Assembly (NCBI GenBank): GCA_902779565.1
Contig: CACZCD010000005.1
Span: forward strand, 1-58,162
Direction: 5' to 3'
Length of the DNA: 58,162 nt
Source: an uncultured bacterium
Lineage (GTDB): Bacteria > Verrucomicrobiota > Kiritimatiellia > RFP12 > UBA1067
The notes beneath the pieces are model-generated. The model had not been told where the DNA came from. It did not search any database and saw only the letters and a list, made by a program, of their open reading frames with translations. Positions 29,860-51,588 of the stretch are shown here, piece after piece (within the stretch, counting starts at the first letter, position 1; each line of letters begins with the position of its first letter). The position numbers and the translations under genes were made by a program.

Positions 29860-32800
29860 ATGAAAAAGAATATGCTCTGTACGTGCGCGGCGCTGTCCGT
29901 CGCGTGGTGTTTCCTTGCCGCAGTGGCGTCCGCCGCCGAGTTCACCTGGACGGGCGGCGGCTCGGGTTGGGCCGACGGCGCGAACTGGGGCGGCACCGCG
30001 CCCGGAGCCGGCGACACCGCCGTCATCCCCTCCAACTTCGACGTCAAGGTGACCGATGGCGACGTCGCGACCGTTGGTGCGCTTGGTGCGATCCGGGTCG
30101 AAGGGTCGCTTGCCTTCCTGAATGCCTCAAGCGACGTCACGATCGCCGGCAACATCTCCGGTGCGGGCGCCATCACCGCGCAGGGAGCGGCCGGCATCAC
30201 GCTCGCCGGCGACAACGTCGGCCACACGGGCAGGATGGAGTTCACCAACAGCAACGTGACGGTCACGTCGCGCACGGGCCTCGGCAGCCCCACGCGCGAG
30301 GCCGTCCACTACAAGAGCGGCAGCGTCGCCTACCGCTTGTGGTTCAAGGGCAACGGCCTTACCAACGACGTGCCGCTCCGGTTGAGCGGCGACCACATCT
30401 CCAGCAAGGGCAACGGCCTCACGCAGAACAACACCGACCCGTTCGTCCAGAACGCCGACATGACTTTCGGGCCGGGCTACGTGAACTTCAGCCTCGGCAA
30501 TTACACGTTCAACGGCGCCCTCAAGCGAACGGTAAACGCCTGGTTTACCATGTACAACAGCGCGGCGTTCAACGGACAGGTCCAGTTCGGCGGAGCGACG
30601 TATTTCCCCGTCGCCCTGTCCTCTTCGTGTACGCTGACCCTCGGCGCAGCCGGCAACAGCTGGGCGCATTTCTGCGCCTACGGCGCTGGAACGGTTCGCT
30701 GCAACGTCGCGAACGCCCTCGACTCCAGCCACTATCATGGACTCGGATACAAAAGCAGCGAGGACGTGACCACGCTCGATCTCAACGGCTACGACCAGAC
30801 TGTTCCGGTGGTGAGGCTCAGCACGTATTCCTCATGGGTACGTACCGCCACGGAAGGAAGCTCGTACTACCAGAGGATCACCAGCGATCGCCCGGCGACG
30901 CTCACGATGACGCGCACGACGACCACGGGCGCGCTGGATGCGGTCGTGCCGTACAAGTTCGAAGGGGCTGTGACGCTGCGCCATGCGGGCGAGGGCCTCT
31001 ACAAGATCGTGAACACGGCCTCGACCTCGACGGGGCGCGTGGAGGTGACGGCCGGCACGGTGGCGTTCGACTGGGGCGCTTCGTGGGCGGGCGACGTTGA
31101 CGTGACGGGCGGCGCGGTCCAGTTCCTTGGCATGTCGTACCTGTCGCCCCGTTCGCGCGTCTCCGTTTCGGGGACGGGCAAGCTCTACGTCGGCGAGAAC
31201 ATGATGCTCGAATGCGCTGCGCTCACCCTCGGCGGCAACCCGAAGGGACTTGGCACGTATTCGGCCGCAACGGACGGCGACTGGATCGACGGCTCCGGCT
31301 CGATTTCAGTCACGCCGGCATTTTCGCCGGGCGGACGGTTCGTGTGGACAGGCGCTGCGGGCAACGGCAGCCTCACGGACGGCGGGAACTGGGAGGGCGG
31401 CACGGCACCTCTGCTCACGGGCGGCGACACGCTCGTCTTCAAGAACGACGCCGCCGGCAACGTGGCGACAGCGGCTTCTGGCAACGTTGCGGCGTATGGC
31501 ATCGAGTTCGAGACGGGCGGCGACTTCGCCCTCGACTTGGGCACAGGCACGTTCTACCTCGGGCCGGGCGGGATCACGACCCGCCTCGCCGAGGGCGCGA
31601 ATGGCGTCCCGACGAACACGGTCACGGCGGCGATGCACGTCAGTTTCCCGCAGGACGGCGACTGGACGATCGCCGGCGGCACGGCGCTGAGGCTCGCCGG
31701 GTCGATGGCGGGCGGGATGATTGGCCATCCGCAGCATAACATCGTCGGCGACGGCGCGCTGATTCTCGAAGGCGACAACGAGGCGCTTATCGAGCCGCTC
31801 AAGCTCGTCTGCCCCACGCGGGTGCTCTCGCCGTACGGCCTCGGCAGCGCCCTGCGCACAACGGTCATTTCGAATACGCTGAAGTTCGCCGAAGCGGGCC
31901 TTACCAACTACACGCCGATTACGCTGCGGGTGAAGAACATCTCCAACGTAGCCGATTCCTTCACCGATTCGATGTACGATCCGCTTGTGATGAAGGGGGC
32001 GGTCGGCTGGATGACCGCGAGCTACGTCCAGTTCTACGTTGGCATGCACTATGCTTTCGACGGCGGCTTCGGGCCGAAGGGCAGCCCGGTGTTCGTGAAT
32101 CCGGCGAACGCAGAGCTCTACATCACCAACGCGCCGATTAAGATGTCCGCGACAGGCTCGTCGGCGTACGTTGTGCCGTCGTCGAGCTTGACCACTCATC
32201 TCGGCGCGACCGGCGGCAACTGGTCCTACCTTGCGTCGGGCAAGCTGCTCGTCTGCGAAGCCGAGGACGCCCTCTACTCGGCGGGCAACGCCTATGGCTG
32301 CGTGCAGACGTCAACCGACATCTACAGCTATGAGCGGGGCACCATCGACCTCAACGGCTTCGACCAGCGCGTGCAGAGGCTGGCCCGGTACGGGATCAGC
32401 AGCAGTCGCCCGGAGGTGACCAAGACCTCTGCGTTAGCGGACGTGCCTGGCACGATCAGGAGCGCGAAGCCCGCGCTCTTCCGCATCGTGCGCGCGACCG
32501 GGGTGGAGGGTCCGTACCCTGTGGTGTTCGCCGGTCAGGCAGGTCTCGAGCAGGCGGGCGGCGCGACGAACCAGATCGTGCGGCGGCTCTCGTCGACCGT
32601 GGGACCGCTGAAGGTCTCGGCGGGCGAGCTGGTGCTGAAGTGGGGCGCAGGTTTCACGAACGTGGAGGACGTGGTGGTTTCGGGCGGGCGCCTGCTCGTG
32701 GCGGCGGATTCCGTGGCGAATGCGTTCGGCAAGGGCAAGGTGACGAAGGCGAACGTCGCGATCTCGGGCGATGGCGTGCTGGAGCTGGAGAGCGGGCTGG

Positions 32801-32967
32801 CGTATGCGGCGTCGCTCACGGTGGACGGTGTCGCCAAGGGCTGCGGCTTCTACGGGGCGTCTGCCTGCGCCGATCCGCGCGTGCCGGCGGCGAATCGCCT
32901 CTCCTGCATGGCGGGCGAGGGCGTACTGCGCGTCGGCAAGATCGGCACCATGATGGTCATCCGCTGA
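29860..32967 (+). CDS. Autotransporter-like secreted beta-structured protein with hydrophobic-Arg tail
   Basis: A 1035-aa exported protein with signal peptide MKKNMLCTCAALSVAWCFLA up to VASAAE. The body is internally duplicated: two modules open with FTWTGGGSGWADGANWGG (about 27) and FVWTGAAGNGSLTDGGNWEG (about 495), and both contain a TxDLNGxDQxV strand (TLDLNGYDQTVP; TIDLNGFDQRVQ). Such Gly/Asn-rich strands resemble autotransporter-associated beta repeats. There is no C-terminal barrel domain; the protein ends GTMMVIR, like other secreted proteins of this locus. It probably acts on the surface or outside the cell, perhaps binding glycan. GGGAAG is a modest ribosome site. Confidence 0.72.
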   Translation: MKKNMLCTCAALSVAWCFLAAVASAAEFTWTGGGSGWADGANWGGTAPGAGDTAVIPSNFDVKVTDGDVATVGALGAIRVEGSLAFLNASSDVTIAGNISGAGAITAQGAAGITLAGDNVGHTGRMEFTNSNVTVTSRTGLGSPTREAVHYKSGSVAYRLWFKGNGLTNDVPLRLSGDHISSKGNGLTQNNTDPFVQNADMTFGPGYVNFSLGNYTFNGALKRTVNAWFTMYNSAAFNGQVQFGGATYFPVALSSSCTLTLGAAGNSWAHFCAYGAGTVRCNVANALDSSHYHGLGYKSSEDVTTLDLNGYDQTVPVVRLSTYSSWVRTATEGSSYYQRITSDRPATLTMTRTTTTGALDAVVPYKFEGAVTLRHAGEGLYKIVNTASTSTGRVEVTAGTVAFDWGASWAGDVDVTGGAVQFLGMSYLSPRSRVSVSGTGKLYVGENMMLECAALTLGGNPKGLGTYSAATDGDWIDGSGSISVTPAFSPGGRFVWTGAAGNGSLTDGGNWEGGTAPLLTGGDTLVFKNDAAGNVATAASGNVAAYGIEFETGGDFALDLGTGTFYLGPGGITTRLAEGANGVPTNTVTAAMHVSFPQDGDWTIAGGTALRLAGSMAGGMIGHPQHNIVGDGALILEGDNEALIEPLKLVCPTRVLSPYGLGSALRTTVISNTLKFAEAGLTNYTPITLRVKNISNVADSFTDSMYDPLVMKGAVGWMTASYVQFYVGMHYAFDGGFGPKGSPVFVNPANAELYITNAPIKMSATGSSAYVVPSSSLTTHLGATGGNWSYLASGKLLVCEAEDALYSAGNAYGCVQTSTDIYSYERGTIDLNGFDQRVQRLARYGISSSRPEVTKTSALADVPGTIRSAKPALFRIVRATGVEGPYPVVFAGQAGLEQAGGATNQIVRRLSSTVGPLKVSAGELVLKWGAGFTNVEDVVVSGGRLLVAADSVANAFGKGKVTKANVAISGDGVLELESGLAYAASLTVDGVAKGCGFYGASACADPRVPAANRLSCMAGEGVLRVGKIGTMMVIR

Positions 32968-33093
32968 CGGGCGGCCGTTCTCGTTCTGCGCCCTCATCAC
33001 CGCCTCGGTTGCTGGCAGGTGATGGGCGGCGTGATGCACGGACAGTCTTCAAAATGGGATAAGGGTGAACCCAATAAAAAGAAAGATATCGCT

Positions 33094-33121
33094 TGAAAAA
33101 AGCGGGCATTGTGGTATATTA
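33094..33121 (+). promoter_or_regulatory. Promoter before the beta-helix triplet
   Basis: TTGAAA (33094-33099), a 16-bp spacer and TGTGG-TATATT (33116-33121), giving a leader of about 35 nt with GAAAGGGAC before the ATG at 33163. Confidence 0.7.
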
Positions 33122-33162
33122 TCCCCCTGTAAGCCCTATTAGGTTTTGGAAAGGGACATACC

Positions 33163-35172
33163 ATGAGAAAGAGAATAGTCGCCAGTTGTCTGGCGCTTGC
33201 CGCGTTTGCCGCCGCGTTCGCGGACGATATCCCCGTCTCGTCCACCGAAGTCGAGCCCGGAGTTTGGGTTGGCGATGTGGTCGCGCTCACGAATGCGCTC
33301 AAGACATGCAAGGCGGGCGACACGATCATCCTTGCCAAGGGAACTTACGACCTAACGCCGCTTCAGGATGATCTGATCAACTCGCCAATGAACTACAGCA
33401 CCTACTACGGGCCGTCAATGCTGTACATTGAAAAGGCTGACATTACGCTGAAGGGTGCCACCGGCAATCCAGAGGATGTCATGCTCACGGCGACGGATGC
33501 CGTGTACAGGCTTCTCAGAATTGCAGGGGCCAGATCCTCCGTGCGCGACATTCATCTGACCGGAGGATATGCCAGTACCGTGTCCAACACCTACTACAAT
33601 CTTCGGAACGGCGGTGCGGTAATGTTTTCGACGAGTACCGCGTTCGCCTCGAATTGCATATTCTCCGCCAACAAGTCATCCCGGTTGGGCGGCGCAGTCG
33701 GAATCGCCGGAAACTCTGGGTTTGGAGGCGTTGTGTACGACTCGGTGTTCCGGGACAACAGCGGTACCGGAGATGGGTATGTCGCCAGTCTGACTGAGCT
33801 TGTGAGGTGCGTCATCACCAACAACCAAACGACGGCCGCCGGAACTCAGGATGCCGGTTATAGCCAACAACTTACCTACGGCTGCAGACTCCGCGACTGC
33901 CTGATCGCCGACAACGTGCCGACGAGATGTGGAATAGAGCTTGGGTTCGCGGAGAACTGCCGGTTCATCAACAACTACGCCCGCGGAGCCAACTACTCCA
34001 ATCCCGGCGGTGGTGCGGCGCGCGACGCGGCGCTGACCAACTGCTACTTCTACGGCAACAGGAGCTATCGCCTCGGCGGCGCCATACGCGGAGGACAGGT
34101 CGTGAATTGCACCGTGGTGTCCAACAGCGTGATAAACGCTACCGATTCGTATGGCGGAGGCATTTATCAGGCCAGTTTAGTGGAGAACTGCAATATCATA
34201 AGCAACATGTGCGGACATGGCGCTGGAATTCAGGAAGGTGCCTTTGTCACTAACTGCTACATCGCCTACAATTGGGCTAGGGATGGCGGCGGCGGTGCTC
34301 GGTCCTCCGTGCTTGTGGATTGCGTTGTGGAGCACAATGTGACCGATAGCTACGAAAACGGGAACTATGGCGGATCCGGCGGCGGGCTGTATGGAGGCAG
34401 CGCCACGAACTGCGTGTTCCGCGACAATTCGTGTTCGGCCACATACAATTCGTCAAGCATCTATAATTGCGACATCTTTGATACGAGCATGCACGCCAAG
34501 GTGTTCGACAAGTGCCGCATCGCGAACTGCAAGAATGAGCCCATCGCCCGTGCCATCGGCGCGGTTGGCTACCCCGAGGGGCACACCACGAGCAACCTCT
34601 ACATGATCGGCTGCTCGGTCATGCGTAACTGCCTTATCACGAATTGTAACTGGAAATCCATCCCTGGGCATTTCGTCAACTCCGCGATGTTCCACTGTGG
34701 CGCGGCCGGCACGAACCGCATAGAGAACTGCACGATAGCCGGCAACTACCATTACATTTTCGCGCGCGGATTCGCCAAGGCGAACAATGCAGGGGTGTTC
34801 GCCAACTGTGCGATAATCGGCAACACCGGTTCTGACATCTCGACGATGGACGACGGCGCGGTGGTGTTCTCCAACTGCGTGTACTCCACGAAGAAATGGG
34901 AAACGAGCCGGACGTTCCTGCCCGGCTTCGAGGACGGCGAGAACTGGCAGCTGGACTCCGTCGCGCAGGCCAAGTTCTGCGGCGACAGGGGCTCTGAGCC
35001 GTACTATGCGCTGAAGTTGAGCTCGCCACTGCGTGGAATAGGACTTGTCCTCGACTGGATGGAAGACGACACCGATCTTGTCGGCAATCCGCGTCTCCGC
35101 GACGGGAAAGCCGATATCGGCTGCTTCCAATGCTGGCTCAACCCGGTCGGAGCGGTGTTCTCGATCCGATAG
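33163..35172 (+). CDS. Pmp-like right-handed beta-helix surface protein 1
   Basis: A 669-aa exported protein (signal peptide MRKRIVASCLALAAFAAAFA). The body is a run of NCxF/SN and GGA(V/I) turns: NGGAVMFST, SNCIFSANKSSRLGGAVG, LTNCYFYGNRSYRLGGAIRG, ATNCVFRDN. This is the GGAI/FxxN pattern of polymorphic outer-membrane proteins and other beta-helices. There is no barrel domain; the protein ends WLNPVGAVFSIR. It is the first of three tandem paralogues and shares the module AETDTW/WVGDVVALTNALK at the start of the helix. Adhesion or glycan binding is likely, and enzymatic activity (as in pectate lyases) cannot be ruled out. Confidence 0.75.
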   Translation: MRKRIVASCLALAAFAAAFADDIPVSSTEVEPGVWVGDVVALTNALKTCKAGDTIILAKGTYDLTPLQDDLINSPMNYSTYYGPSMLYIEKADITLKGATGNPEDVMLTATDAVYRLLRIAGARSSVRDIHLTGGYASTVSNTYYNLRNGGAVMFSTSTAFASNCIFSANKSSRLGGAVGIAGNSGFGGVVYDSVFRDNSGTGDGYVASLTELVRCVITNNQTTAAGTQDAGYSQQLTYGCRLRDCLIADNVPTRCGIELGFAENCRFINNYARGANYSNPGGGAARDAALTNCYFYGNRSYRLGGAIRGGQVVNCTVVSNSVINATDSYGGGIYQASLVENCNIISNMCGHGAGIQEGAFVTNCYIAYNWARDGGGGARSSVLVDCVVEHNVTDSYENGNYGGSGGGLYGGSATNCVFRDNSCSATYNSSSIYNCDIFDTSMHAKVFDKCRIANCKNEPIARAIGAVGYPEGHTTSNLYMIGCSVMRNCLITNCNWKSIPGHFVNSAMFHCGAAGTNRIENCTIAGNYHYIFARGFAKANNAGVFANCAIIGNTGSDISTMDDGAVVFSNCVYSTKKWETSRTFLPGFEDGENWQLDSVAQAKFCGDRGSEPYYALKLSSPLRGIGLVLDWMEDDTDLVGNPRLRDGKADIGCFQCWLNPVGAVFSIR

Positions 35173-35199
35173 TGGATGGTGATTAGAAGGAGGTGGATC

Positions 35200-37224
35200 G
35201 TGGGACGAGTAGGACAAGTGAGACGAGTGGAATGGAGCGTTGCGTTTATTACCGTCTTCGCGGTGTGCGGGGCGTATGGTGCCAGTGTAACTGTACCGTC
35301 CACCTACGATGCGGAGACGGATACGTGGATCGGAGACGTGGACTTCCTCACCAACACGATCGCGAACGCATCCAAGAACCTGAACGTCTATCTGTCGAAG
35401 GGCGTTTACGATCTTTCTCCAATCACGAACGCGCCCATGTACAGCGCGAGCGGTGGTGGGTATGGCGCGGCGTTGATCTATGCGAACAACGGCATCCGGT
35501 TCATTGGAGCGACGGGCGATCCTAAGGATGTAATAATAAAGGCAACTGATTCTGAATATCGCCTCATAGCCCTCAATGCAAATAATTCGGTGCTTCGCAA
35601 CGTAACCGTTACAGGTGGAAACGCCGCTGCCGGACATATCAACACATACAACTACAGGCGCGGTGGCGGAGTGCTTTTGAGCGGTGATGGGTCGATTGTC
35701 TCGAACTGCATCTTCACGGCAAACAAAGCAGCAACTAGTGGCGGTGCGGTGGCTGGACCGAACACTTTGAAGGGAACCGTTTACGATTCTGTGTTCTACG
35801 GGAATAATGAAACGTCCGGATATGGTCTTGTAGCCAGTCTCACGACGCTCCGCAATTGCATTTTCACGAACAACGTCTGCACAATGACGGCAGATGGGGA
35901 TTGGAGCTGCTCGATTGCCGAGGACTGCAGGGTGTATGACTCGTATTTCGCATACAATCAAGGCTCCCGAACTGGCGGCGTGAGCGGCGGTTTGGCGGTG
36001 AACTGCAGGTTCTTGTTTAATACGCAGGGCAATCCAAACGGCAACAACTGGGGCAATCCAGGTGGTGGCGGTGCATACAAGGCGACCTTGACCAATTGCT
36101 GCTTCTACGGCAACACTGCGTATCGCATAGGCGGAGCAATTCGCGGCGGCAGGGTTGTGAACTGTACCGTAATATCAAACAGGACGCGCCATGCTTCAGA
36201 TGCATACGCCGGCGGTCTTTACGAGTCGTCGTGGGTTGAGGGTTGCACGGTGTCGAGCAACATCAGCGTAAATGGCGGCGGAATGAGCAACTGCGGCATC
36301 GTCACGAACACGGTTATTGCTTTCAACAAGGCGAACTACGGCGGTGGCGCAAGATCTTCGGCGCTTACGGGTTGCACGGTAGAGCACAATGTCGCCGCAA
36401 CATACGAGGGCGGCAACTATGGTGGCGCGGGCGGGGGAATCTGCTACGGTAGCGCCACGAACTGCGTGTTCCGCGACAATTTCTGTTCGACGAGCTATAG
36501 GACGACGGTTCTCAAGGACTGCGATATCGCGGATACGGCTGTGAACGCACGGATCATTGATTCCTGCTCAATACATGGCGTGCAGAACGATGAGCTTGTG
36601 CGGGCCGTGGGGAACGTGGCCTATCCGAACGGCAATGTCACGAGCAACATGTATATGTTCGGGGGCGTGTATGAGATGCGCAACTGCCTTGTCACGAATT
36701 GCACATGGAAGGGTTTGAAAGGAAATCATGCAAACACAGCTGTATTCACAAGCGACGGCGCAGTCACGACCCGCGTGGAGAACTGCACGTTTGCCGATAA
36801 CTCCTATTACTTACTTTCTCGCTACTTTAACGTCACCAACAAGACGCTTGCATTTGTCAACTCTGTACTGACTGGCAACAAGCAAACAACAAGGGGCGAT
36901 TTCGTCACGATGGAGAGCGCGTATGTGGTCCTCTCCAACTGCGTGTATGGCAAGTTGGGCGAATACACGGCGAAGGCGGAGGGCTTCGAGAACTTCGGTT
37001 GCACGTCGATAACGGCGCGGGCGGCGTACAAGTTCACGGGGAAGGATCCCGATCCGTATTCGTTGAGGCGCTCGTCGCCCTTGCGCGGATGGGGACTGCT
37101 TCTTGACTGGATGGAGGACGGCACCGATCTTGCCGGCAATCCGCGCCTGCGTGATGGCACGGTAGATATCGGCTGTTACCAGTGCTGGCTCGATCCAATC
37201 GGCACGACGTTCTCGATCAGGTAA
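35200..37224 (+). CDS. Pmp-like right-handed beta-helix surface protein 2
   Basis: A paralogue of about 674 aa. The start is set at GTG 35200, 6-7 nt behind AAGGAGGTG; an ATG at 35176 lacks a ribosome site. The signal peptide n-region GRVGQVRRVEW is encoded by 9-bp repeats (GGACGAGTA, GGACAAGTG, AGACGAGTG). The h-region is SVAFITVFAVCGAYGA. The helix repeats its GGA(V/I) and NC(x)F turns and aligns with copy 3 nearly end to end, including SSPLRGWGLLLDWMEDGTDL and the tail WLDPIGTTFSIR. 27 bp separate it from copy 1. Confidence 0.75.
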   Translation: MGRVGQVRRVEWSVAFITVFAVCGAYGASVTVPSTYDAETDTWIGDVDFLTNTIANASKNLNVYLSKGVYDLSPITNAPMYSASGGGYGAALIYANNGIRFIGATGDPKDVIIKATDSEYRLIALNANNSVLRNVTVTGGNAAAGHINTYNYRRGGGVLLSGDGSIVSNCIFTANKAATSGGAVAGPNTLKGTVYDSVFYGNNETSGYGLVASLTTLRNCIFTNNVCTMTADGDWSCSIAEDCRVYDSYFAYNQGSRTGGVSGGLAVNCRFLFNTQGNPNGNNWGNPGGGGAYKATLTNCCFYGNTAYRIGGAIRGGRVVNCTVISNRTRHASDAYAGGLYESSWVEGCTVSSNISVNGGGMSNCGIVTNTVIAFNKANYGGGARSSALTGCTVEHNVAATYEGGNYGGAGGGICYGSATNCVFRDNFCSTSYRTTVLKDCDIADTAVNARIIDSCSIHGVQNDELVRAVGNVAYPNGNVTSNMYMFGGVYEMRNCLVTNCTWKGLKGNHANTAVFTSDGAVTTRVENCTFADNSYYLLSRYFNVTNKTLAFVNSVLTGNKQTTRGDFVTMESAYVVLSNCVYGKLGEYTAKAEGFENFGCTSITARAAYKFTGKDPDPYSLRRSSPLRGWGLLLDWMEDGTDLAGNPRLRDGTVDIGCYQCWLDPIGTTFSIR

Positions 37225-37240
37225 TCAAAGGAGGTGGATC

Positions 37241-39289
37241 ATGAGACAAGTGAGACGAGCAGGATGGAGTGTGGCGCTTATTGCCGCCATTGCGGTGTGC
37301 GGGGCGTATGGTGACGACGTCACCATAACGTCCAGGTATGACGCGGAGACGGATACGTGGATTGGCGACGTTGTCGCGCTTACGAATGCGCTGAAGAATG
37401 CGGTAGCCGACCAGACGATCTACCTTGAGAAGGGCGTGTACGATCTATCGTCCCTTTCTGATGATCGTGCGCCGATGCACATCACCGGCTATGGGAACGC
37501 GCTCCTTGGCCTCAACAAGACGAACGAGCGGCTTGTGGGCATAACGGGGAAGCCGGAGGATGTTGTCATCATGGCGACGAATTCCGACTATCGCATCCTG
37601 AACCTTGCCGCGACAGGGACGCAACTCCACAATGTCACCGTCAAGGGCGGCTATGCGAGCACGAACGGGTTGACCCAAGCGAAGGACGGGTCATACACCG
37701 GCGGCTATATGGCGGGCGGCGGAGTGATGTTCATCGGCAGCAGCACGGTTGTCTCCAACTGCCATTTCACCGCCAACCGTTGCCGAGGTGCCGCTGGCGC
37801 GATAGGAGGCAACAATCAGTACATGGGCACCGTTTACGATTCGGTGTTCTATGGGAACAACGATGACGTGAACCATGAGACGGCGATTGTGGCGCGGTAC
37901 ACCACGATGCACAGATGTATCGTGACGAACAATGTTTACAGCGGCGTAAATGGATATGGTTATGTCCTGCGAAACTGCCGCGTTTATGATTCGCTAATCG
38001 CCTACAACAGGTCGTCCAATTGCGCCGGGCTCGCAAGCGGACTTGGGGTCAACTGCCGGTTCCTGCATAATGTTCAGCCGTCTAACGCGAACAACTGGAA
38101 TCCGGCCGGTGGAGCCGGCGCACGCAGCTCCACGCTCACCAACTGCTACTTCTACGGGAACGTGGCGTACCGGCTGGGTGGCGCGATACGCGCCTGCAAT
38201 GCGGTGAACTGCGTGATCGTCTCGAACATGACGACCCGCGCTGTTGGCTCCGATCAAACCGACTCCTACGGTGGCGGCGCTTGTGCCAGGGATTCCGAAG
38301 TATGCAGACTTGAAAACTGCCTTGTGATGAGCAACCTGTGCGTGTTCGGAGGAGGGTGCTACAAGTGCACCGTGATCGGCGGCACGAACGCATACAACAA
38401 GGCCAAGGTGGGCGGCGGGGCCCATACATCGGCGATGACGGATGTGCTGATCGAGCACAACGCCGCGCAGGACTACGCGAACGGCACCAACGGCGGAGCG
38501 GGCGGCGGCGTTGCGTATGGCGCGGCGACGAACTGCGTGTTCCGCGACAACGCCTGCTCGGCGGCGTATGGCACGACAATCCTGAAGGATTGCGATATCG
38601 CGGACAATTGCGTCAATGCGCGAAAGATCGAGGGGTGCATCTTCCATGAGGTGGAGAACGTAAGGAAGCTCCGCGCCATCGGGAATGTCGCCTATCCGGG
38701 AGGATTCATGACCAGCAACATCTTCATGATCGCAGGTGCCGATGTGGTCCGGAACTGCCTCATCACGAACTGCAACTGGAACCACATCTCCGGCAACTTC
38801 TACAACTCGGCCGTGTTTGAGCACGGGCGAAGCGCGATAACGACAAGCGTTGAGAACTGCACGTTCGCCGACAACAATTACTATTGGCTGACACGCAACT
38901 ACAATGTATCCACCCAGCGGATTTCATTTGTAAATACGGTTTTTACAGGTAATGCCGGCAGTGACGTATCGACGACGGATAGCAAGTATATGGTGCTTTC
39001 CAACTGCGTTTACGGGAAGATGGGAGGTTGCACGACGAAGGCGGAGGGCTTCGAGAACTATGGCTGCACGTCGATAACGGCGCGTGCGGCGTACAAGTTT
39101 ACGGGGAAGGATCCCGATCCGTATTCGCTGAGGCGGTCGTCGCCCTTGCGTGGATGGGGGCTGCTGCTTGATTGGATGGCGGACGGCACCGACCTTGCCG
39201 GCAATCCGCGTCTGCGTGACGGCGCGGTGGATATCGGCTGTTACCAGTGCTGGCTCGATCCGGTCGGTGCGGTGTTCTCGATCCGATAG
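37241..39289 (+). CDS. Pmp-like right-handed beta-helix surface protein 3
   Basis: A 682-aa third paralogue, nearest to copy 2. Signal peptide MRQVRRAGWSVALIAAIAVCGAYG follows an AAAGGAGG site whose surroundings (GGAGGTGGATC) are identical to copy 2, so the duplication included the ribosome site. Helix turns such as GGGVMFIGSSTVVSNCHF and YFYGNVAYRLGGAIR recur. The tail is WLDPVGAVFSIR. Spacing to copy 2 is 16 bp. Divergence is concentrated in the middle strands, while both ends are nearly identical, which fits recent duplication or gene conversion. Confidence 0.75.
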   Translation: MRQVRRAGWSVALIAAIAVCGAYGDDVTITSRYDAETDTWIGDVVALTNALKNAVADQTIYLEKGVYDLSSLSDDRAPMHITGYGNALLGLNKTNERLVGITGKPEDVVIMATNSDYRILNLAATGTQLHNVTVKGGYASTNGLTQAKDGSYTGGYMAGGGVMFIGSSTVVSNCHFTANRCRGAAGAIGGNNQYMGTVYDSVFYGNNDDVNHETAIVARYTTMHRCIVTNNVYSGVNGYGYVLRNCRVYDSLIAYNRSSNCAGLASGLGVNCRFLHNVQPSNANNWNPAGGAGARSSTLTNCYFYGNVAYRLGGAIRACNAVNCVIVSNMTTRAVGSDQTDSYGGGACARDSEVCRLENCLVMSNLCVFGGGCYKCTVIGGTNAYNKAKVGGGAHTSAMTDVLIEHNAAQDYANGTNGGAGGGVAYGAATNCVFRDNACSAAYGTTILKDCDIADNCVNARKIEGCIFHEVENVRKLRAIGNVAYPGGFMTSNIFMIAGADVVRNCLITNCNWNHISGNFYNSAVFEHGRSAITTSVENCTFADNNYYWLTRNYNVSTQRISFVNTVFTGNAGSDVSTTDSKYMVLSNCVYGKMGGCTTKAEGFENYGCTSITARAAYKFTGKDPDPYSLRRSSPLRGWGLLLDWMADGTDLAGNPRLRDGAVDIGCYQCWLDPVGAVFSIR

Positions 39290-42958: not shown

Positions 42959-42983
42959 CCAGAAAATACTCAGGAGGATAATC

Positions 42984-44969
42984 ATGAAAAGAATGGAACA
43001 AGTCGGACGAGCGGGATGGAAGCTTGCGCTTCTGGTCGCTTTTGTGGCGCTGAATGCGTTGGCCGAGAAGATGCCGCCGCTGCCGGCGGGGGCATTCACG
43101 TATGCGGTGATCCCCGATACGCAGAGCTACGACGGCGAAGGGCGCACCACCAAGCACGGACGGGCGCCGGGCAAAGGTCCCACGCGGAACGAAAAGTTCG
43201 ATGCCATCGTCAAATGGCTCGTCGCGAACGCCGAGAAGGAGAACATCCTGTTCGTTTCGCACACCGGCGACATCGTCGATGTGAACAACGACTTCCAGTG
43301 GCGCTTCGCCTCCAACGCGATGTCGCGTCTGGACGGCAAGCTTCCCTACGCGGTCGTCCCCGGCAACCACGACATGAAGAACAGCGGCGACACGACGCTC
43401 TTCCAGAAGTACTTCCCCGCCTCCCGCTACGCCGGCAACGCCTGGTACGCGGCCACGTTCCCCGGCTTCAAGAACTCCGCCGGCCTGTTCGTCTCCGGCA
43501 ACAACGCGAACAACATCTGCCTCTTCGAGCAGGGTCAGGAGAAGTTCGCGGTGGTGCATCTGGAATGCAACGCGCCGGACGTCGTGCTCACCTGGGCCGA
43601 GAAGGAGCTTGCGAAGTATCCGGATCGGCACGTGATCGTGGCGACGCATCAGGACCTTGGCGCCATCGAGGCGAAGGACGGCCGGCTTCTGCTGAACGAG
43701 ACGGCCAAGCTCTCGAAGGAGGAGCTTGCGAAATACGAGCCGGACCTTTCCATCTTCGGCCGGATGAAGTGGCACAAGTGCCACGGCAAGGACGGCAATT
43801 CGGGACTGGACATCTGGAAGAAGTTTACGTCGCGCCTGAAGAACGCCTTCCTCGTCGTCTCCGGCGATCAGGGCATGATCAAGATCACCCGCGTGGACGA
43901 AAAGGGCGTCCACGGGAACATGGTGTATTCGCTCATGCAGGATACGGGCGGCGGATTCATCCGCATCTTCCGCTTCATCCCGTCTGAGAAGGTCGTGCGC
44001 TGCTACACGATCGACCCGCGCAAGGGCGGCGAGCTCGTTCATTCCTGCTACGTCTGGCGTGATGACCTGTGGTTCAACTTCGAGCTGCCCTATCCGGGCA
44101 CGAAGGGCGAGAAGCCCGTGCCGCCCAAGATGGGGGCGGAGGCCGCACCGCGCAGGTCCGCAGGTGGAACGAGTCCGGCCCCTTCAAAGACGGAGGAGAT
44201 CTACGTTCCGCCGGAAAGGGGAAAGCTTGAGGCGTGCGCCGCCATTCCGGCGGATGATCCGATCGCCATGCGCAAGGTCGAATGGGCGGGGATGGGCAAC
44301 GTCCGCGACCTCGGTGGGTTGCCGGGCCTCGGCGGCAAGCGTGTGCGGAAAGGGCGCATCTACCGTTCGGACGGACTGAACAACAATGCGGCCTATCGCA
44401 TTCCCGGCACGAAGAAGGCATTGCCGAAGAGCGAATGGAAGGGCCCGGGCGCGCCACGCATCAAGCCGGAAGCGGCGAAGTATGTCGTCGAGACGCTTGG
44501 CGTCAAGACGGATCTCGATCTCCGGACGGATGCGGAGACGTTCGGGATGACCGGTTCGCCGCTCGGCGAGAAGGTGCGCTGGGTGCACATCTCGTCCTCC
44601 GAGTACAACGGAATCGTGAAGGGGAGAGGGCGCGATGCGTTCATCGCGGATTTCAAGGTGTTCCTCGATGAGGCGAACTATCCGATCGTGTTCCATTGCA
44701 TCGCCGGCGCGGATCGCACCGGGTCGCTCGCCTGCGTCCTGAACGGTCTTCTCGGCGTGGATGCCGATCTTCTGCACCGCGACTGGCAATACACGTGGAT
44801 GGGACGGAAGAAACCGCAGCAGGCGCCCGAAAAGCTCTGGGAGCGTCTGATGACGGGACTCTCCACCTTTGAAGGCGCCACGTTGAACGCGAAGATCGAG
44901 AATTTTGTCCTCTCCTGCGGCTTCACGGCGGACGACATCGCCAAGTTCCGGAAGCTGATGTTGGAATAG
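42984..44969 (+). CDS. Secreted calcineurin-like phosphoesterase fused to a tyrosine-phosphatase-like domain
   Basis: A 661-aa exported protein; MKRMEQVGRAGWKLALLVAF is the signal peptide, behind CAGGAGG. Residues about 30-360 are a calcineurin-like phosphoesterase with PDTQSYDG, HTGDIVDVNND, PGNHDMKN (about 127) and VATHQDLG. Residues about 420-660 resemble the Y_phosphatase3 family: NVRDLGGLPGLGGKRVRKGR, IYRSDGL, and the CX5R loop FHCIAGADRTGSLA (about 571). A Pro/Ala linker joins them. Both are hydrolases of phosphoesters, so the protein may strip phosphate from extracellular substrates (glycans, nucleotides or lipids). I know of no common fusion of this type. Confidence 0.78.
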   Translation: MKRMEQVGRAGWKLALLVAFVALNALAEKMPPLPAGAFTYAVIPDTQSYDGEGRTTKHGRAPGKGPTRNEKFDAIVKWLVANAEKENILFVSHTGDIVDVNNDFQWRFASNAMSRLDGKLPYAVVPGNHDMKNSGDTTLFQKYFPASRYAGNAWYAATFPGFKNSAGLFVSGNNANNICLFEQGQEKFAVVHLECNAPDVVLTWAEKELAKYPDRHVIVATHQDLGAIEAKDGRLLLNETAKLSKEELAKYEPDLSIFGRMKWHKCHGKDGNSGLDIWKKFTSRLKNAFLVVSGDQGMIKITRVDEKGVHGNMVYSLMQDTGGGFIRIFRFIPSEKVVRCYTIDPRKGGELVHSCYVWRDDLWFNFELPYPGTKGEKPVPPKMGAEAAPRRSAGGTSPAPSKTEEIYVPPERGKLEACAAIPADDPIAMRKVEWAGMGNVRDLGGLPGLGGKRVRKGRIYRSDGLNNNAAYRIPGTKKALPKSEWKGPGAPRIKPEAAKYVVETLGVKTDLDLRTDAETFGMTGSPLGEKVRWVHISSSEYNGIVKGRGRDAFIADFKVFLDEANYPIVFHCIAGADRTGSLACVLNGLLGVDADLLHRDWQYTWMGRKKPQQAPEKLWERLMTGLSTFEGATLNAKIENFVLSCGFTADDIAKFRKLMLE

Positions 44970-45029
44970 TCGTCTAAAGCTTAGATGCGAATGGTTCGTG
45001 AACCCTTCAACCCTGAAAGGTACAGCAAC

Positions 45030-47429
45030 ATGAAGATGACAATAAACCAGGCGTCGCTTTTCTCCGCTGTGTGCATCGCATCATGCACGATGGGCGCGGC
45101 CCACGCCGCGACCACCCAGGCGGACTGCACGGCCTACATGACCGCGAGCGATGCCAGCTGGAAGGAATCATCGTTCGACCATGGCGCGCATTGGAGCGAC
45201 GTGAACATACCGGGATCGGGCTCCACCAACTATGTCGGGGCCGGCTTCACGATTATGGATCCCTATATCAGTTCCGGCTCACAGTCCTATCCTGGCGACG
45301 TGCTGGTGCTGGCCGGTACCTTCAATGGCCAGTCGAGCGGCGGCGCCACCATCTCCTGGCCGGAGCTGCGGCTTGAGAACGGTGCCCTGTACCGGTGGTC
45401 GAGTTTTCACCGCGTTGCCGGAAAGGTGGTGGTAGAGGCGGACGCGACGGCACCGGCGGAACTGCGCATGTTCTATCCGAGCAGTTACAACTCCGCCACT
45501 TTGGCGGCTTCGTTCTTTGGCGATCCGGATTCGTGCTTGAAGCTGACGCGTTCAGACGGTAATCCTGCCGTGCCGCTCCCCGATCTGCGTTGGGCCATCG
45601 CGGGAGACTGGAGCCAGTTCTACGGCACGTGCATTGTGAGCAACCGTTCGCAGTTCGTGCCATATACCACCAGCCCCATCTATCCCGGCACAATCATCGT
45701 AGAGGAGGGTGGATATTGGTGGGGTTACTACAACTTCGGTTCTGCCACCGTCACCGTCGGCACGCTTGACCTGCGCGACGGCTCGCATTTCTGGGGCAGA
45801 TGCAATTCAAGCGGCAGCACATCGCTTACAATTGTGACAAATGAACTGAAGCTGGGGGCGGTGGATATCATCTTCTTGGATTCGTGGGGCGCGTCGGGGA
45901 TGACGCTTTCCACATTGCCGAACTACACCGTGGGCGGCAATCCGGTGAAGATACCCCTGTTCAAGCTCATCGGCGCAGCCGCCGGAAAGGTGCCCGACCT
46001 CACGAAGGCGACGATCCCGGACTATCCGGCCGCCAAGAAGGTGGGCGAGTTCCCGCGGCTGAAGGCGCTTGTCTGCGAGGATAACGGCGACGGCACGAAG
46101 ACGATCAGCGCGAAGTACTATGACGATGGCGACATCATCATCATGCGGACGGCCAACGGTTCCTACCAGTATGCACAGTCCGCCTTCAATCCTGACAACG
46201 GCAGCTACTGGAGCACCGGTGAGGTTCCGACGTCCGAGACTTCTGGGGACGCCTATGCTCAGGCCGCCATTACCTGGACGGGCTACAACACCTATTCCTA
46301 CCCCAACCTCACCTACACCATCGCCTCCGCCCTCTACATGCAGTGCGACAATCTCACTGCGAAGCGGTTCATCTTCACCAACGGCGGAAGCATCAGCACG
46401 TACAGCCAGGGGAAGTACAAGAACATGTATGGGCCGATCACGCTTGCAAAGGCCGGCGTCACGAACTCAATCGACGTATTCCAGAACTTTATTCTCACCA
46501 TCCATGGCGACATCTCGGGTCCAGGCTCCTTGAAGATAATAAATCCGTCCCCGCATGCGAACCCCGTCGGCCATACCATTTTTAAAGGCAGCCATGCCGG
46601 GCTCCACGGCGCGTTCATCGTCTTTTGCAATTCGAATAGCGACACCTCCACCGGCAAATCTCTGATGCCCGACGTCGCGAACGGGAAATACACCAACGTG
46701 TCGATCGAGCGCGGTGACCAGTTCGGCGGCGAATACATCGGAAACAATCCGTGGCAGTCGATCTGGGTCAACTGCTACGGCTGTCTGCACATGACCAATA
46801 CGGATGTCACGGTGAGCGAGCCGACGCGCGGACTGTTCGTGGACGGCGGCGCACAGTTTGATGTCGGCGGCGGTTTGACCTGTACGCTCGACATCCCCGT
46901 CACATTCGGCGGCGAACTCCTGAAGCGCGGCAACGGCAAGCTTTCGCTCGGCGGCGAGGCGCGTTTCATCAACGGCGATCCGGCTACGGAACCGCTTGAA
47001 GGCACAAACCGGCTCACAATCGCCGCCGGTTCGCTTGAGGTCACGTCCACGAACGCGGTCAACGGCGTGCGCGTGGCTTTCGGTGAAGGGACGTCGCTTG
47101 TCGTGGATCCGGAACCGGCGGACGCGGATCTCGCCGACGTCGGCATCGTCAACACGCGTTGGAGCGAGCCGTTCGTCTCCACCCGTACGGATGGACGGAT
47201 ACCGGTGACGTTCAAGGCCGGCAGTCCGACGCTCGAATCGGGCGTGGGCAGCTATTCCGTTGCGCTCTGCACGGTTCCTTCGTCTGCGGCGGACGGCGTG
47301 CGCACGATGCTCAAGATGCCGAACGTGCCGCATTACCGTGTCACGGTTGAACCGCGCGCGAACGCGGATGGTTCCGTGACGCTGCTTGCTGCGTTCACGC
47401 GCAAGGGCCTCGTGCTCTCCTTCCGCTGA
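45030..47429 (+). CDS. Secreted beta-structured surface protein with hydrophobic-Arg tail
   Basis: A 799-aa exported protein of unknown function. The signal peptide MKMTINQASLFSAVCIASCT runs to GAAHAA. The body is made of Gly/Asn/Ser-rich strands (TVTVGTLDLRDGSHFWG, GPITLAKAGVTNSID, DISGPGSLKIIN), like autotransporter passenger domains. It ends AAFTRKGLVLSFR, matching the tail of the other beta-structured proteins here. No catalytic motif is seen. CCTGAAAGG is the ribosome site; an in-frame start at 44985 would lack a signal peptide at the N-terminus. 60 bp separate it from the phosphatase gene. Confidence 0.68.
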   Translation: MKMTINQASLFSAVCIASCTMGAAHAATTQADCTAYMTASDASWKESSFDHGAHWSDVNIPGSGSTNYVGAGFTIMDPYISSGSQSYPGDVLVLAGTFNGQSSGGATISWPELRLENGALYRWSSFHRVAGKVVVEADATAPAELRMFYPSSYNSATLAASFFGDPDSCLKLTRSDGNPAVPLPDLRWAIAGDWSQFYGTCIVSNRSQFVPYTTSPIYPGTIIVEEGGYWWGYYNFGSATVTVGTLDLRDGSHFWGRCNSSGSTSLTIVTNELKLGAVDIIFLDSWGASGMTLSTLPNYTVGGNPVKIPLFKLIGAAAGKVPDLTKATIPDYPAAKKVGEFPRLKALVCEDNGDGTKTISAKYYDDGDIIIMRTANGSYQYAQSAFNPDNGSYWSTGEVPTSETSGDAYAQAAITWTGYNTYSYPNLTYTIASALYMQCDNLTAKRFIFTNGGSISTYSQGKYKNMYGPITLAKAGVTNSIDVFQNFILTIHGDISGPGSLKIINPSPHANPVGHTIFKGSHAGLHGAFIVFCNSNSDTSTGKSLMPDVANGKYTNVSIERGDQFGGEYIGNNPWQSIWVNCYGCLHMTNTDVTVSEPTRGLFVDGGAQFDVGGGLTCTLDIPVTFGGELLKRGNGKLSLGGEARFINGDPATEPLEGTNRLTIAAGSLEVTSTNAVNGVRVAFGEGTSLVVDPEPADADLADVGIVNTRWSEPFVSTRTDGRIPVTFKAGSPTLESGVGSYSVALCTVPSSAADGVRTMLKMPNVPHYRVTVEPRANADGSVTLLAAFTRKGLVLSFR

Positions 47430-47484
47430 AGGCCGGGCGAATTGCTGTAAACGTTCTGATTCCCCTCATTAGGTAGAAGAAGAG

Positions 47485-48717
47485 ATGAAGCAGAGAAACA
47501 GATTTTTCGGGAAAGGGCAGGCGGCGGCATCAGTCCTGATGGCGCTCATCCTTTCCGCGTCCTGCGGCGCGGCAGAAAAGCCTGCGGGCGACGCGTCCGC
47601 AAAGCGGCCCGCTGCGGTAGAGCCCCCTCTGCTGGAGAAGAAGGAGCCTGTGAAAACGGTGGAGCTTACGTGGATCGACGGTACGGAGATCCCTTTGGAG
47701 GGACGCGCCTTCCCCAACGCGAAACATCCATACGCGCGGCTACCGGAAGAGGCGTTTTCGAAGCCGGATCTCGCCAAGATCCGTTCGGCGATCACATGCC
47801 CTGCGGGGATGTGCTTCAGGTTCACGACGGACTCCAGCGTGCTGCACGTGCGCTGGACCAACGGCGCCAAGCCGCCCTATGGTCTGTGCAACGCAACGGG
47901 CATACTCACGGCGGGCATCGACATTTACCGGCTGGGCGAAGACGACGTGTGGAGGTTCTGGATGTCCGGATTCCCGCGCGCGCAGACAAACGAGCTCAAG
48001 ACTTCATGGACCCCCAATCGGCCTTGCATGATCTACCTGCCGCTCTCCTCGAGGTTCGAGTCCATCAGCATCGGCATCCAGCGGGGGGCTAAGATCATGC
48101 CCCTGGGTCCTCGCAAGAGCGGCGTCGAGAAGCCGGTGGTGGTATACGGAACGTCGATGGTGCACGGATACTCGTCGTCCCGCCCCGGCATGATTTGGAC
48201 CTCTGTTCTTTCGCGCATGCTTGACGTGCCGATGGTCAACCAGGGGTATTCCGGGAACGGGAAGCTGGAGCCGTCGATGTGCGACTATCTGGCGGCGATC
48301 GACGCGTCGGCCTACTGCTTCTTCACCTGGGGCGGGCAGATGACCGTGGAGACGATGCGCGAGAAGACGCGTCCCTTCCTCGAGAAGCTTCATCGTGCGC
48401 GTCCAGGCGTGCCGATACTGGTGGGAGAGTATTACTATGTGGTGGGGGCGAGCCGGCTCAACACGACGAACAAAAAGCGGAGCTTCGTACGGGAGCTCGT
48501 CGAGGAGCTGAAGGCTGACGATCCGCAGTTCTGGCGCAACCTGTATCTGGTGAGGGGCGAGCGGCTGTTCTGCGAGGACGACGACGGCACGGTCGACTCC
48601 GCCCACTTCAACGACCGCGGCGCCTACAGATGTGCCGAGGCATTCGCGGAGGTTCTGCGCGAGGCGTTGCGCGACAGCGCGGCGACCACGGCGCCAAACC
48701 ATGCACAATCTTTTTGA
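47485..48717 (+). CDS. Secreted SGNH (GDSL-like) esterase
   Basis: A 410-aa exported hydrolase, perhaps a sugar acetyl-esterase. The signal peptide (to about SASCGAAEK) may instead be a lipoprotein signal, as SASC looks like a lipobox. An N-terminal GxDLY-like beta domain contains LTAGIDIYRLGED. The SGNH part begins VVVYGTSMVHGYSSSRPG (nucleophile Ser near 221, here GTS rather than GDS), then MVNQGYSGNGKLE (Gly and Asn blocks) and ends DSAHFNDRGAY with catalytic Asp and His (about 371-374). GDSL_3-type enzymes often deacetylate xylan or pectin. It starts 55 bp after the previous gene, and the next gene's ATG lies 22 bp after its stop. Confidence 0.8.
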   Translation: MKQRNRFFGKGQAAASVLMALILSASCGAAEKPAGDASAKRPAAVEPPLLEKKEPVKTVELTWIDGTEIPLEGRAFPNAKHPYARLPEEAFSKPDLAKIRSAITCPAGMCFRFTTDSSVLHVRWTNGAKPPYGLCNATGILTAGIDIYRLGEDDVWRFWMSGFPRAQTNELKTSWTPNRPCMIYLPLSSRFESISIGIQRGAKIMPLGPRKSGVEKPVVVYGTSMVHGYSSSRPGMIWTSVLSRMLDVPMVNQGYSGNGKLEPSMCDYLAAIDASAYCFFTWGGQMTVETMREKTRPFLEKLHRARPGVPILVGEYYYVVGASRLNTTNKKRSFVRELVEELKADDPQFWRNLYLVRGERLFCEDDDGTVDSAHFNDRGAYRCAEAFAEVLREALRDSAATTAPNHAQSF

Positions 48718-48739
48718 AAACAGGCAAAGGAGAACGAAC

Positions 48740-51580
48740 ATGGCGAGGAACAGAATACTCATGCTGGTGTCGGCGTTCGCGGCGGCGCTTTGCGCCAACG
48801 CCGGCTTTGAGCAGATCGACGGGAAGGACTACTGGCGCGACGACGCCGGCACCCTGCACCAGTACCTGTACCTCAAGGGGCATAGCGCAAAAATCGGTAA
48901 CGCCGGCCTCAAGTTCCATGACCAGCCTTCCGACGAGACTGAGAAGTCTTGGGTTCCTGGTAGCGTGTTCGTCACTAGCTCCAACATCACCTATTCTGGT
49001 TCCTGGGCCTTCTCGCCACCATCGTCGCTATATGGCTTCTGCCTGCAGGCGAACAACGCTGACAGCGGCTACTACACTTTTGACGTAACCACAACCTTCG
49101 AGCTTGGCGCATACGGCATACGCGCCGAGCGGGCCGGAATCTATCTTCGCTCGTACACATCATCGTTTGATATCAAAGAGTCACAGACGTGGTCTGGACT
49201 CCCGGCCGAACGGCTTTCGTCTTCGCCTTTCACCATCGGCATACCGAACTATTATGCCAATACAAAATGGGCGAAAGGAAGGATTCTTTCAACGGCGGAA
49301 AACGTCAAGTTTAAGTTGGCCGGTGATATGCGCCTGCTGCTTGCGGCGACGAACTGCAGCATGTCCACCTGCGACGTGATCGTTGAAAAGCCGGCGTATC
49401 TTGCCGTAAGGCAGTACACATTCGGAACCGGCGATAAGTATTTTGGAAAGCTTGGCGCGCATAGCCTTACGCTGGACGGAGGCGCGGGGCTTATTTTCGG
49501 GAGCGCGACAGGTGGAACAAACACCATCCCGATCCTCTCTCCCCAACGGATTGCGCCAACCGTCGTTCTTACGAATGGCGCACTGCTTTCCGCTTCGGTC
49601 AACACTACGATCACCGGCGGCGTGACGATCGTCTCCGCTGTGGGATCGTCGGGCACAGTAAAGGGAACTTACATCCTTGATGACGACGCGACGACGTTCC
49701 GCGCCGAGGAGGGTTCCACGCTTGACCTTACGGGGATGAACATGGTGGTGCGTGGGACTTTTGCATTGGCTGGTTCCGGCAGAATAAAGCTTTCGGGCGT
49801 GCGCCTTGACGGTGCGCAGTTGCAGAACTTCTCCGGCACGATCGAGATTCCGTCGGGTGCGCTCTATATCCCGCGCGCAGCGGACGTTCCGGCGGGCGTG
49901 AAGTTCGAGACCAGCGGCAGCGGCGCGCTGTGCTTCGGCGATGCGACGGGATTTGACGCCGCCACGTGCCTTTCGGGAACGGCGAATCTCTTGGATGGTT
50001 CATCCGGTTTGGTCGTCACCGACGTCAAGCGCGAGTCGGTATCGGTGGGCGCCGGCGAAACGCTGCTTGTCTGCGGCAACGGGTTGGATGCGGATGGCGC
50101 ACTCTCGCTCGCCGCCGGCGCGACGGTAATGTTCTGCGAGACGGCAACGATTGCGGCCCCCATCTCGCAGTCGGGCGCGGTGACGGTCGAGACGTTTTCT
50201 CCTGCCGTGACCGGCTCGGTTTCGGGCGTCTATACAGCGACGGCGGGAAAGATGGCGGTGGTGTCGCCTGGCCTTTTGCGGATTACCGGAGGCGGTGTGC
50301 TTTACGGCCTTGACATGAAAACGGGTCACGCCGAAATCACGGACGCGCGAATTGATTGTAACGGAAACTTGTCCTTCTACGGTGGCTATCTCACCATCAA
50401 GAATGGCGGAAAGTTCTATCTCGGCAAAGTGGATTGGACGAAGCTGGCCCTCAATCTGGATGACCAGATGGAGGATGCCACGCTTGAGGTCGGCCAGGGC
50501 GGATATTTTCAGCAGATCAAGGGGTACGACCAGCATCTTCTGATCGGAAAGTCCAAAACCTATATCTCGCGCCTGTTCATCAACGGCGGAGAGGTGCGCA
50601 TGGTGGTACACGAGCCGTTCAGGATTGACGGCAACGGAATCGTGGAGATCGACAATGGCGGCATCCTGCGCACGGTCAGGGCGATTGACGTGGGATCTGG
50701 CGGACTTGGCGACCGATGTGGCATCATCCTTGGCAACGGCACGTTCTGCGCCACTCCCTACACGAGCGAAAGCGATGAGGGCAGCCCAACATACAACTAT
50801 CGCGGCTTCATAAAGTACCACAACATCATCACGGCTGGTGCGGTGCCCGTGACTGTGAAGGGCGACTTCCTTTTCGATCTCACGCATTTCGTGAACAATC
50901 CCATGACAAACCAGTCGGATACGGTGACAAGCCAGTGGAAGTTCGAGAATGGCGGGCGTCTCCGGGTGAAGGGCAATGGCAAGAAGCTCATATTCCGCAG
51001 CAGCAGCGCATCGCATCTCGCGCTTGACCTTACGGCGGAGCTGCCGGCGGCGACGGTCGAGATACTGCCGACGGACGACGGCGAGGGTGCGCCCGCGCCG
51101 CAGTCGATCGAGTGGACGGTTCCTACAAACGGAGTGACGGCGGGTACCGTCGTGGCGCAGGAGCTGGATGGCCAGGCGGTGCCGCTTGTCGCGTCGTACC
51201 GTGTGCCGGATGGCGCGACGTTCTCCGATGCCGCGATGACGGAGTGGAATTCTGGATTCGCGTCCGCGACAACCTCGAACCTCACGTTTGAGAGCGGTGC
51301 CTCGTGGCAGTTTGCGGCGTTCCCGTTCTCGCCGTTGACGCTTGCGGGTTCGCTGTCGTTGCCAGCGTCGTTGCCGTGCACGGTGGTTGCCGGCGGTCCA
51401 GCCAGTGCGGGTGCGGTGGTGGAGACCATCGCAACGGCGGCGGACGGGATTTCCGGCGCGGATTGCGCGTTCCCGTGCAGAGGGGTTGGCGTGAACCTGA
51501 AGAACTCGTCGATCGCTGTTGACGGCTCGTCGGTGGTGCTCTCCTACGCTTCGCCCGGATTCATGTTGCTGGTGCGGTAA
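48740..51580 (+). CDS. Secreted beta-helix/autotransporter-like protein with hydrophobic-Arg tail
   Basis: A 946-aa exported protein. Signal peptide MARNRILMLVSAFAAALCAN after AAAGGAG. The middle consists of autotransporter-associated-type strands: SLTLDGGAGLIFGSATGG, GSTLDLTGMNMVVRGTFALA, LFINGGEVRMVVHEPF, DGNGIVEIDNGGILRT. No catalytic residues are recognised. The protein ends VVLSYASPGFMLLVR, the fourth independent example of the hydrophobic-Arg end. The in-frame start at 48632 lies within the esterase gene and is rejected. The GH42-like gene begins 8 bp after its stop, so the two are cotranscribed. Confidence 0.7.
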   Translation: MARNRILMLVSAFAAALCANAGFEQIDGKDYWRDDAGTLHQYLYLKGHSAKIGNAGLKFHDQPSDETEKSWVPGSVFVTSSNITYSGSWAFSPPSSLYGFCLQANNADSGYYTFDVTTTFELGAYGIRAERAGIYLRSYTSSFDIKESQTWSGLPAERLSSSPFTIGIPNYYANTKWAKGRILSTAENVKFKLAGDMRLLLAATNCSMSTCDVIVEKPAYLAVRQYTFGTGDKYFGKLGAHSLTLDGGAGLIFGSATGGTNTIPILSPQRIAPTVVLTNGALLSASVNTTITGGVTIVSAVGSSGTVKGTYILDDDATTFRAEEGSTLDLTGMNMVVRGTFALAGSGRIKLSGVRLDGAQLQNFSGTIEIPSGALYIPRAADVPAGVKFETSGSGALCFGDATGFDAATCLSGTANLLDGSSGLVVTDVKRESVSVGAGETLLVCGNGLDADGALSLAAGATVMFCETATIAAPISQSGAVTVETFSPAVTGSVSGVYTATAGKMAVVSPGLLRITGGGVLYGLDMKTGHAEITDARIDCNGNLSFYGGYLTIKNGGKFYLGKVDWTKLALNLDDQMEDATLEVGQGGYFQQIKGYDQHLLIGKSKTYISRLFINGGEVRMVVHEPFRIDGNGIVEIDNGGILRTVRAIDVGSGGLGDRCGIILGNGTFCATPYTSESDEGSPTYNYRGFIKYHNIITAGAVPVTVKGDFLFDLTHFVNNPMTNQSDTVTSQWKFENGGRLRVKGNGKKLIFRSSSASHLALDLTAELPAATVEILPTDDGEGAPAPQSIEWTVPTNGVTAGTVVAQELDGQAVPLVASYRVPDGATFSDAAMTEWNSGFASATTSNLTFESGASWQFAAFPFSPLTLAGSLSLPASLPCTVVAGGPASAGAVVETIATAADGISGADCAFPCRGVGVNLKNSSIAVDGSSVVLSYASPGFMLLVR

Positions 51581-51588
51581 GGTTGACT

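Follow-up and report, generated by a model that had tools for sequence, protein, structure and literature searches.

A seven-residue C-terminal tail, probably a sorting signal, stands in place of PEP-CTERM on secreted proteins of Kiritimatiellia

The window, by which we mean the whole stretch of 58,162 nucleotides analysed here, is contig C5 of a host genome (G000) of 4.09 Mb in 322 contigs, a gut-type member of the class Kiritimatiellia, and among named organisms those nearest to its proteins are Kiritimatiellia of metagenomes from horse, sheep, water deer and rumen. Six of its genes encode proteins that end in a short hydrophobic tail with Arg as the last residue, and these genes, with their tails, are laid out as follows.

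29860..32967, + strand: secreted beta-strand-repeat protein of 1035 amino acids, an open reading frame with the N-terminal Sec signal peptide MKKNMLCTCAALSVAWCFLAAVASA
32944..32967, + strand: tail GTMMVIR and stop, read from the sequence, ending protein 29860-32967
33163..35172, + strand: right-handed beta-helix protein of 669 amino acids with a signal peptide (Pfam Beta_helix, E 1e-11)
35149..35172, + strand: tail GAVFSIR and stop, from the sequence, ending the beta-helix protein 33163-35172
35176..37224, + strand: beta-helix paralogue of 682 amino acids with a signal peptide, 59% identical to 37241-39289
37201..37224, + strand: tail GTTFSIR and stop, from sequence and alignment, ending the paralogue 35176-37224
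37241..39289, + strand: beta-helix paralogue of 682 amino acids, a beta-helix in its AlphaFold2 model
39266..39289, + strand: tail GAVFSIR and stop, from the sequence, ending the paralogue 37241-39289
45030..47429, + strand: secreted beta-rich protein with the signal peptide MKMTINQASLFSAVCIASCTMGAAHA, from the sequence
47406..47429, + strand: tail GLVLSFR and stop, from the sequence, ending the open reading frame 44985-47429, whose likely start is 45030
48740..51580, + strand: secreted beta-rich protein with the signal peptide MARNRILMLVSAFAAALCANA, from the sequence
51557..51580, + strand: tail GFMLLVR and stop, from the sequence, ending the open reading frame 48632-51580, whose likely start is 48740

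An earlier note on this DNA had listed these six tails and assigned their proteins to four sequence families, and both statements hold: every tail is present with its stop codon and, when the 250 residues before the tail are compared by BLAST, the proteins fall into four unrelated groups, one made up of the beta-helix paralogues at 33163, 35176 and 37241, with those at 29860, 44985 and 48632 in the others. The protein at 29860-32967 has no match in Pfam and NCBIfam scans, and by BLAST it falls together with tail proteins of the PATR type from other loci; that at 45030-47429 was assigned no family in the same scans, and that at 48740-51580 is related by BLAST to another tail protein (L016). The note was also right that the glycosidases and esterase in between do not share the tail, as it is absent from the C-termini of all eight enzyme-type reading frames between and around the six genes (CGKSG, LEGAR, IAEDD, LVEFE, KLMLE, HAQSF, SDADVH and GGVMP), and right that the barrels at 12824 and 13979 end in Phe, both closing with GGIALGVSF. 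The latter (12824-13795, without a Pfam match, and 13979-14941) are tandem paralogous outer-membrane-barrel-like proteins. Elsewhere in the window, a glycosidase-like reading frame at 51583-55851 contains the low-complexity run KSGKVERWKSGKVERWKSGKVERWESGKV, as if from an in-frame DNA repeat, and at 42942-44969, judged by eye, a calcineurin-type phosphoesterase appears to be fused to a tyrosine-phosphatase-like domain (HCIAGADRTG).

Is the tail a property of this one locus? We sampled 858 kb of the host genome, comprising 539 genes, with home-made callers for genes (based on codon usage) and signal peptides, and used the rate of the motif inside proteins as the control for its rate at their ends. 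The form G-x-x-Φ-x-Φ-R closes 31 of the 539 genes, where 0.63 would be expected (p about 1e-41), and even the looser Φ.ΦR, the motif put forward in the earlier note, is found at 37 C-termini against 6.5 expected (p=5e-17). What is more, the tail is carried by 21 of 154 strictly called signal-peptide proteins as opposed to 10 of 385 others (odds ratio 5.9, p=3.5e-6). In other words, the comparison with cytoplasmic proteins that the earlier note had proposed yields strong enrichment, almost entirely on proteins with a signal peptide. A sample of genome G110 likewise holds 9 tails against 0.38 expected from the internal rate, and samples from tail-free genomes hold none (G201 and G025) or one against 0.13 expected (G017). 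Over the whole host genome, the codon pattern for G-x-x-Φ-x-Φ-R-stop has 127 matches compared with 84 in the reversed control, and these often read GTMMVIR, GTRIIVR, GLKFIIR, GTQMIIR or the like.

In total, 58 reading frames with the tail were collected. By a crude test, a signal peptide is present in 41 of them and missing from 8, the other 9 being truncated by the edge of a fragment; several of the 8 are fragments or frame-broken, and in one (L012) the start resembles a signal peptide just below the cut-off. The 58 tails sit on 28 unrelated C-terminal regions (again by BLAST of the preceding 250 residues), and all of their coding 21-mers are distinct, with near-maximal entropy at the wobble positions and each of the three stop codons in use, which argues that it is the peptide that is under selection. 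Three of the six window proteins are, admittedly, paralogues of each other, as one would expect if the tail came about by chance or as a DNA-level artefact such as a repeat element or a shared gene family. However, the enrichment, the 28 unrelated groups and the 58 different DNA versions together refute such an origin, to which we give practically no credence, and establish a conserved peptide end.

The consensus of the 58 tails is G-T-[VL]-[IF]-x-[IV]-R-COOH. Besides Arg, the residue most strongly shared is Gly seven from the end, with Thr next in other families; in family f15, that of G110, the form is G-T-[V/L]-[I/M]-x-[I/V]-R, and that of the host genome is less strict, with T, F, L, A or S after Gly and with Phe common four from the end. 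Among homologues of the beta-helix protein 37241-39289 at 27-59% identity, the tail's Gly and Arg are invariant, and homologues in named gut Kiritimatiellia (26-45% identity) retain it as GAVISIR, GTLLLLR, GFSIIIR and GMKVSIR. That said, the last residue is not always Arg, being Q, K, H or E in some genomes: in G346, 12 of 17 PATR tails end in R and 5 in Q, K or H; one protein of G193 (L148) ends in GTLLIIE; and one of G110 (L063, 10887), which adjoins a canonical tail gene, ends in GGALLSVQ. The tail is preceded by a short linker, often Pro-rich in G110. In tail proteins with a choice_anch_Q domain, this domain ends 10-11 residues before the stop, so that the tail occupies the anchor position. 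The AlphaFold2 model of 37241-39289, which rests on eight sequences, has a confident beta-helix with a pLDDT of about 30 over the last 90 or so residues, tail included, and so hints that the tail may lie outside the fold and be unstructured.

The Pfam matches of tail proteins are to PATR, LamG, beta-helix, PKD, choice_anch_Q and similar non-catalytic modules, and the same scans found no clear catalytic domain. From these domains, a location at the cell surface would be expected. The neighbouring genes, as judged from their sequences, are concerned with sugar catabolism, esterases and regulation, and a comparison of neighbours found no recurrent gene for dedicated machinery. Genome G346 (L229-L246) has at least 149 PATR repeat matches, in proteins of up to about 3000 amino acids, and all of its PATR proteins that were read end in the tail or in a last-residue variant.

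PATR proteins occur in tail-rich and tail-free genomes alike, and it is by their C-termini that they can be compared. In the sampled regions of G346, 17 of 17 close with the tail or with a variant of its last residue, and the tail or something close to it also terminates those of G110, G000 and G084 that could be followed to the stop. In tail-free G007, G053 and G187, every PATR protein readable to the stop ends in PEP-CTERM, for example VVPEPSSLGLIVVVGAVGLLRRRLRG. Among those readable, the exceptions are one protein of G316 and one of G038, which carry neither signal. Counts of PEP-CTERM (by PF07589, in the same 193 genomes in which tails were counted) agree with this picture: at least 10 matches are found in none of 17 tail-rich genomes and in 70 of 176 others (p=3.7e-4), and at the level of families the abundances of tail and PEP-CTERM are negatively correlated (Spearman -0.43, p=0.003, 47 families). 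The host's family (f1), in which tails are present, has 4 PEP-CTERM matches on average, whereas its sister family in the same order (f2), with no net tails, averages at least 23. Many genomes, for instance in family f14, have neither signal, and the PEP-CTERM counts per genome reach at least 41 at the top of their range, so the relation is one of exclusion and not a strict two-state switch. The tail, then, takes the place of PEP-CTERM on shared surface cargo, and we regard this as the strongest evidence for its function. Literature searches brought up no account of a sorting signal or of PEP-CTERM from Kiritimatiellia.

With a stricter codon pattern, which accepts only CGN for Arg and hence undercounts, matches and control matches number 38 and 0 in G110, 21 and 0 in G346, 20 and 1 in G304, 19 and 0 in G316 and 12 and 0 in the host. 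By this pattern, the tail is scattered among families of the class Kiritimatiellia and at background elsewhere in the phylum; within the class, f2, f9, f13 and most other families are at background too. The tail-rich families include f15, f70 and f1, and those rich in PEP-CTERM include f2, f8, f9 and f6. Tails that a loose DNA pattern had suggested in other classes (f31 and f37) were discarded, there being none in the sampled proteins and the stricter pattern being at background.

What might read such a tail? Exosortase is present in 23 of 25 genomes, tail-rich and tail-free alike, and was rejected as the tail's machinery, being nearly ubiquitous in the tested genomes without tracking the tail. 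Second, divergent exosortase copies are commoner in tail-rich genomes and absent from G110 and G101; they belong to VIT-protein or TPR-fusion systems. The host's own second copy (L116, contig C62, 10723-13784) adjoins a seven-helix protein of 750 amino acids that ends in PEP-CTERM (TPEPAALLSLGVVVFVFVAVCFIRRRRNAA), with a tail-bearing gene just upstream, and G084 has a similar pair (L128, 1008-4794). Fusions of an exosortase domain with a long TPR-like region, of about 1330-1390 amino acids in all (L122, 319-4485; L124, 9356-13354; L129, 5873-9871; L130, 9217-13191), each adjoin a porin-like protein ending in Phe, and occur in several tail-rich genomes, G110 not among them. An expansion of Omp85 was likewise dismissed, since tail-rich genomes have 1-2 copies, no different from tail-free ones, and so were secretins, which do not differ between the two either. 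The SprA translocon model TIGR04189 has no match in the 25 genomes, but no control genome was positive either. All in all, no partner protein emerged among the exosortase, Omp85, secretin and SprA families or among recurrent neighbours.

The earlier note had proposed a surface-sorting or anchoring signal, and the enrichment and the replacement of PEP-CTERM on the same types of cargo support this. Given that close relatives have a known surface-sorting signal in exactly its position, the tail probably acts as a new address label that a protein-sorting machine reads. We consider it likely, with some reserve, that it is a sorting or anchoring signal of Kiritimatiellia, free of any transmembrane segment and used in place of PEP-CTERM. 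As for the further step, namely that it labels an undescribed outer-membrane export or anchoring system with its own receptor, which took over PEP-CTERM/exosortase cargo in several lineages, we put the chances at about even. In such a system, Sec would export the large beta-structured proteins (PATR strand repeats, LamG, beta-helix, choice-of-anchor Q), and once these are in the periplasm or at the outer membrane, their last seven residues, on a short and often Pro-containing linker, would be read by a putative receptor, which would move the protein to the cell surface or hold it there. Most likely, the tail would bind by becoming an extra edge strand, and the Arg and carboxylate at the C-terminus would be recognised: five residues cannot cross a membrane, there is no transmembrane helix, and the hydrophobic residues stand second and fourth from the end, a spacing like that of a beta-strand with a charged last residue.

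Two alternatives would assign the tail to familiar machinery. One is that ordinary BamA reads it as a BAM-type beta-signal and so brings barrel-less passengers to the outer membrane. The spacing G-x-x-Φ-x-Φ is the general form of outer-membrane beta-signals and the tail fits it, several cargo proteins carry PATR, the passenger repeat of autotransporters, and BamA would have to serve where a tail-rich genome has only one or two Omp85 copies. Yet the true barrels here end in Phe, the tail ends in Arg with its hydrophobic residues one register off, and BamA is found in all Gram-negatives, while the tail is limited to part of one class; we therefore think this reading unlikely. The other is that the tail is a shortened PEP-CTERM on which exosortase still acts. 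It shares with PEP-CTERM its position and cargo, a Pro-rich linker precedes the Gly in G110, and tail-rich genomes do have exosortase. However, the defining features of PEP-CTERM (PMC1569441), namely Pro-Glu-Pro, a transmembrane stretch and a basic cluster, are missing; Pro-Glu-Pro is absent from all 58 tails, and between Gly and the single terminal basic residue there are just five residues, in place of a helix and a basic cluster. Moreover, G110, the genome richest in tails, has a single exosortase, no more than tail-free genomes, and this lies within a polysaccharide-type gene cluster, so a shortened PEP-CTERM seems to us very improbable.

Would one need a machine at all? The tail could instead have a structural or stabilising role: it might act as a donor strand by which subunits are joined into fibres, for example, or shield the C-terminus from periplasmic proteases; strand-like spacing, repetitive beta-structured cargo and the lack of dedicated machinery in our searches would all suit this. 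It is harder to see, though, why one short tail should then be common to unrelated folds and lacking in adjoining secreted enzymes, or why relatives should carry a known sorting signal in its place, and we hold such a role to be rather improbable next to the sorting or anchoring signal that we favour.

Kiritimatiellia are common in herbivore guts and almost uncultured, and since the tail proteins lie among polysaccharide-degradation genes, the signal probably marks how a fibre-facing surface is built. C-terminal sorting signals have repeatedly led, by phylogenetic profiling, to new surface machineries such as exosortase and rhombosortase, and the sharp contrast between f1 (tail) and f2 (PEP-CTERM) makes the machinery directly searchable here.

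How does the tail compare with known systems? PEP-CTERM and GlyGly-CTERM were recognised as exchangeable suffixes of many unrelated signal-peptide proteins with a patchy distribution (PMC1569441, PMC3237569), and on the same grounds the tail may be called a sorting signal by kind: a genome has multiple copies of it, at the very end of proteins with a signal peptide, and it behaves as a suffix, on 28 otherwise unrelated regions and on PATR proteins that carry either it or PEP-CTERM. The PEP-CTERM/exosortase system thus resembles it in position, unrelated cargo, patchiness and exchangeability, and in sister lineages sits on the same PATR passengers, but its signal spans about 24 residues as opposed to 7, and the tail does not track exosortase. 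GlyGly-CTERM/rhombosortase, LPXTG and PGF-CTERM share the position, the many-to-one logic, the suffix behaviour and a conserved Gly; the tail is without their tripartite architecture of motif, helix and basic cluster. Our best reading of these comparisons is that the tail is, by kind, a C-terminal sorting signal that lacks the architecture of the compared ones and a known machine. Type IX (Por) secretion likewise relies on a C-terminal signal without a transmembrane segment, carried by beta-rich surface proteins that Sec exports, and its C-terminal domain has a hydrophobic last strand and a basic end; that domain, however, is folded and about 70-100 residues long, and no NCBIfam C-terminal secretion domain (TIGR04183 type) was found in the 6 window and 8 other tail proteins. 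Autotransporters (type V) have passengers with the same PATR repeats, but in the PATR tail proteins that were followed to their stop codon the short tail comes last, and Pfam scans of tail proteins found no translocator or barrel domain. The BAM beta-signal, too, has the same C-terminal spacing, and differs in its Phe end, its barrel cargo (here beta-helix, PATR or LamG) and its lack of lineage restriction. In short, the compared signals are either tripartite, with motif, membrane helix and basic cluster, or a folded domain, and a helix-free tail of seven residues on dozens of proteins would suggest that recognition is of another kind here.
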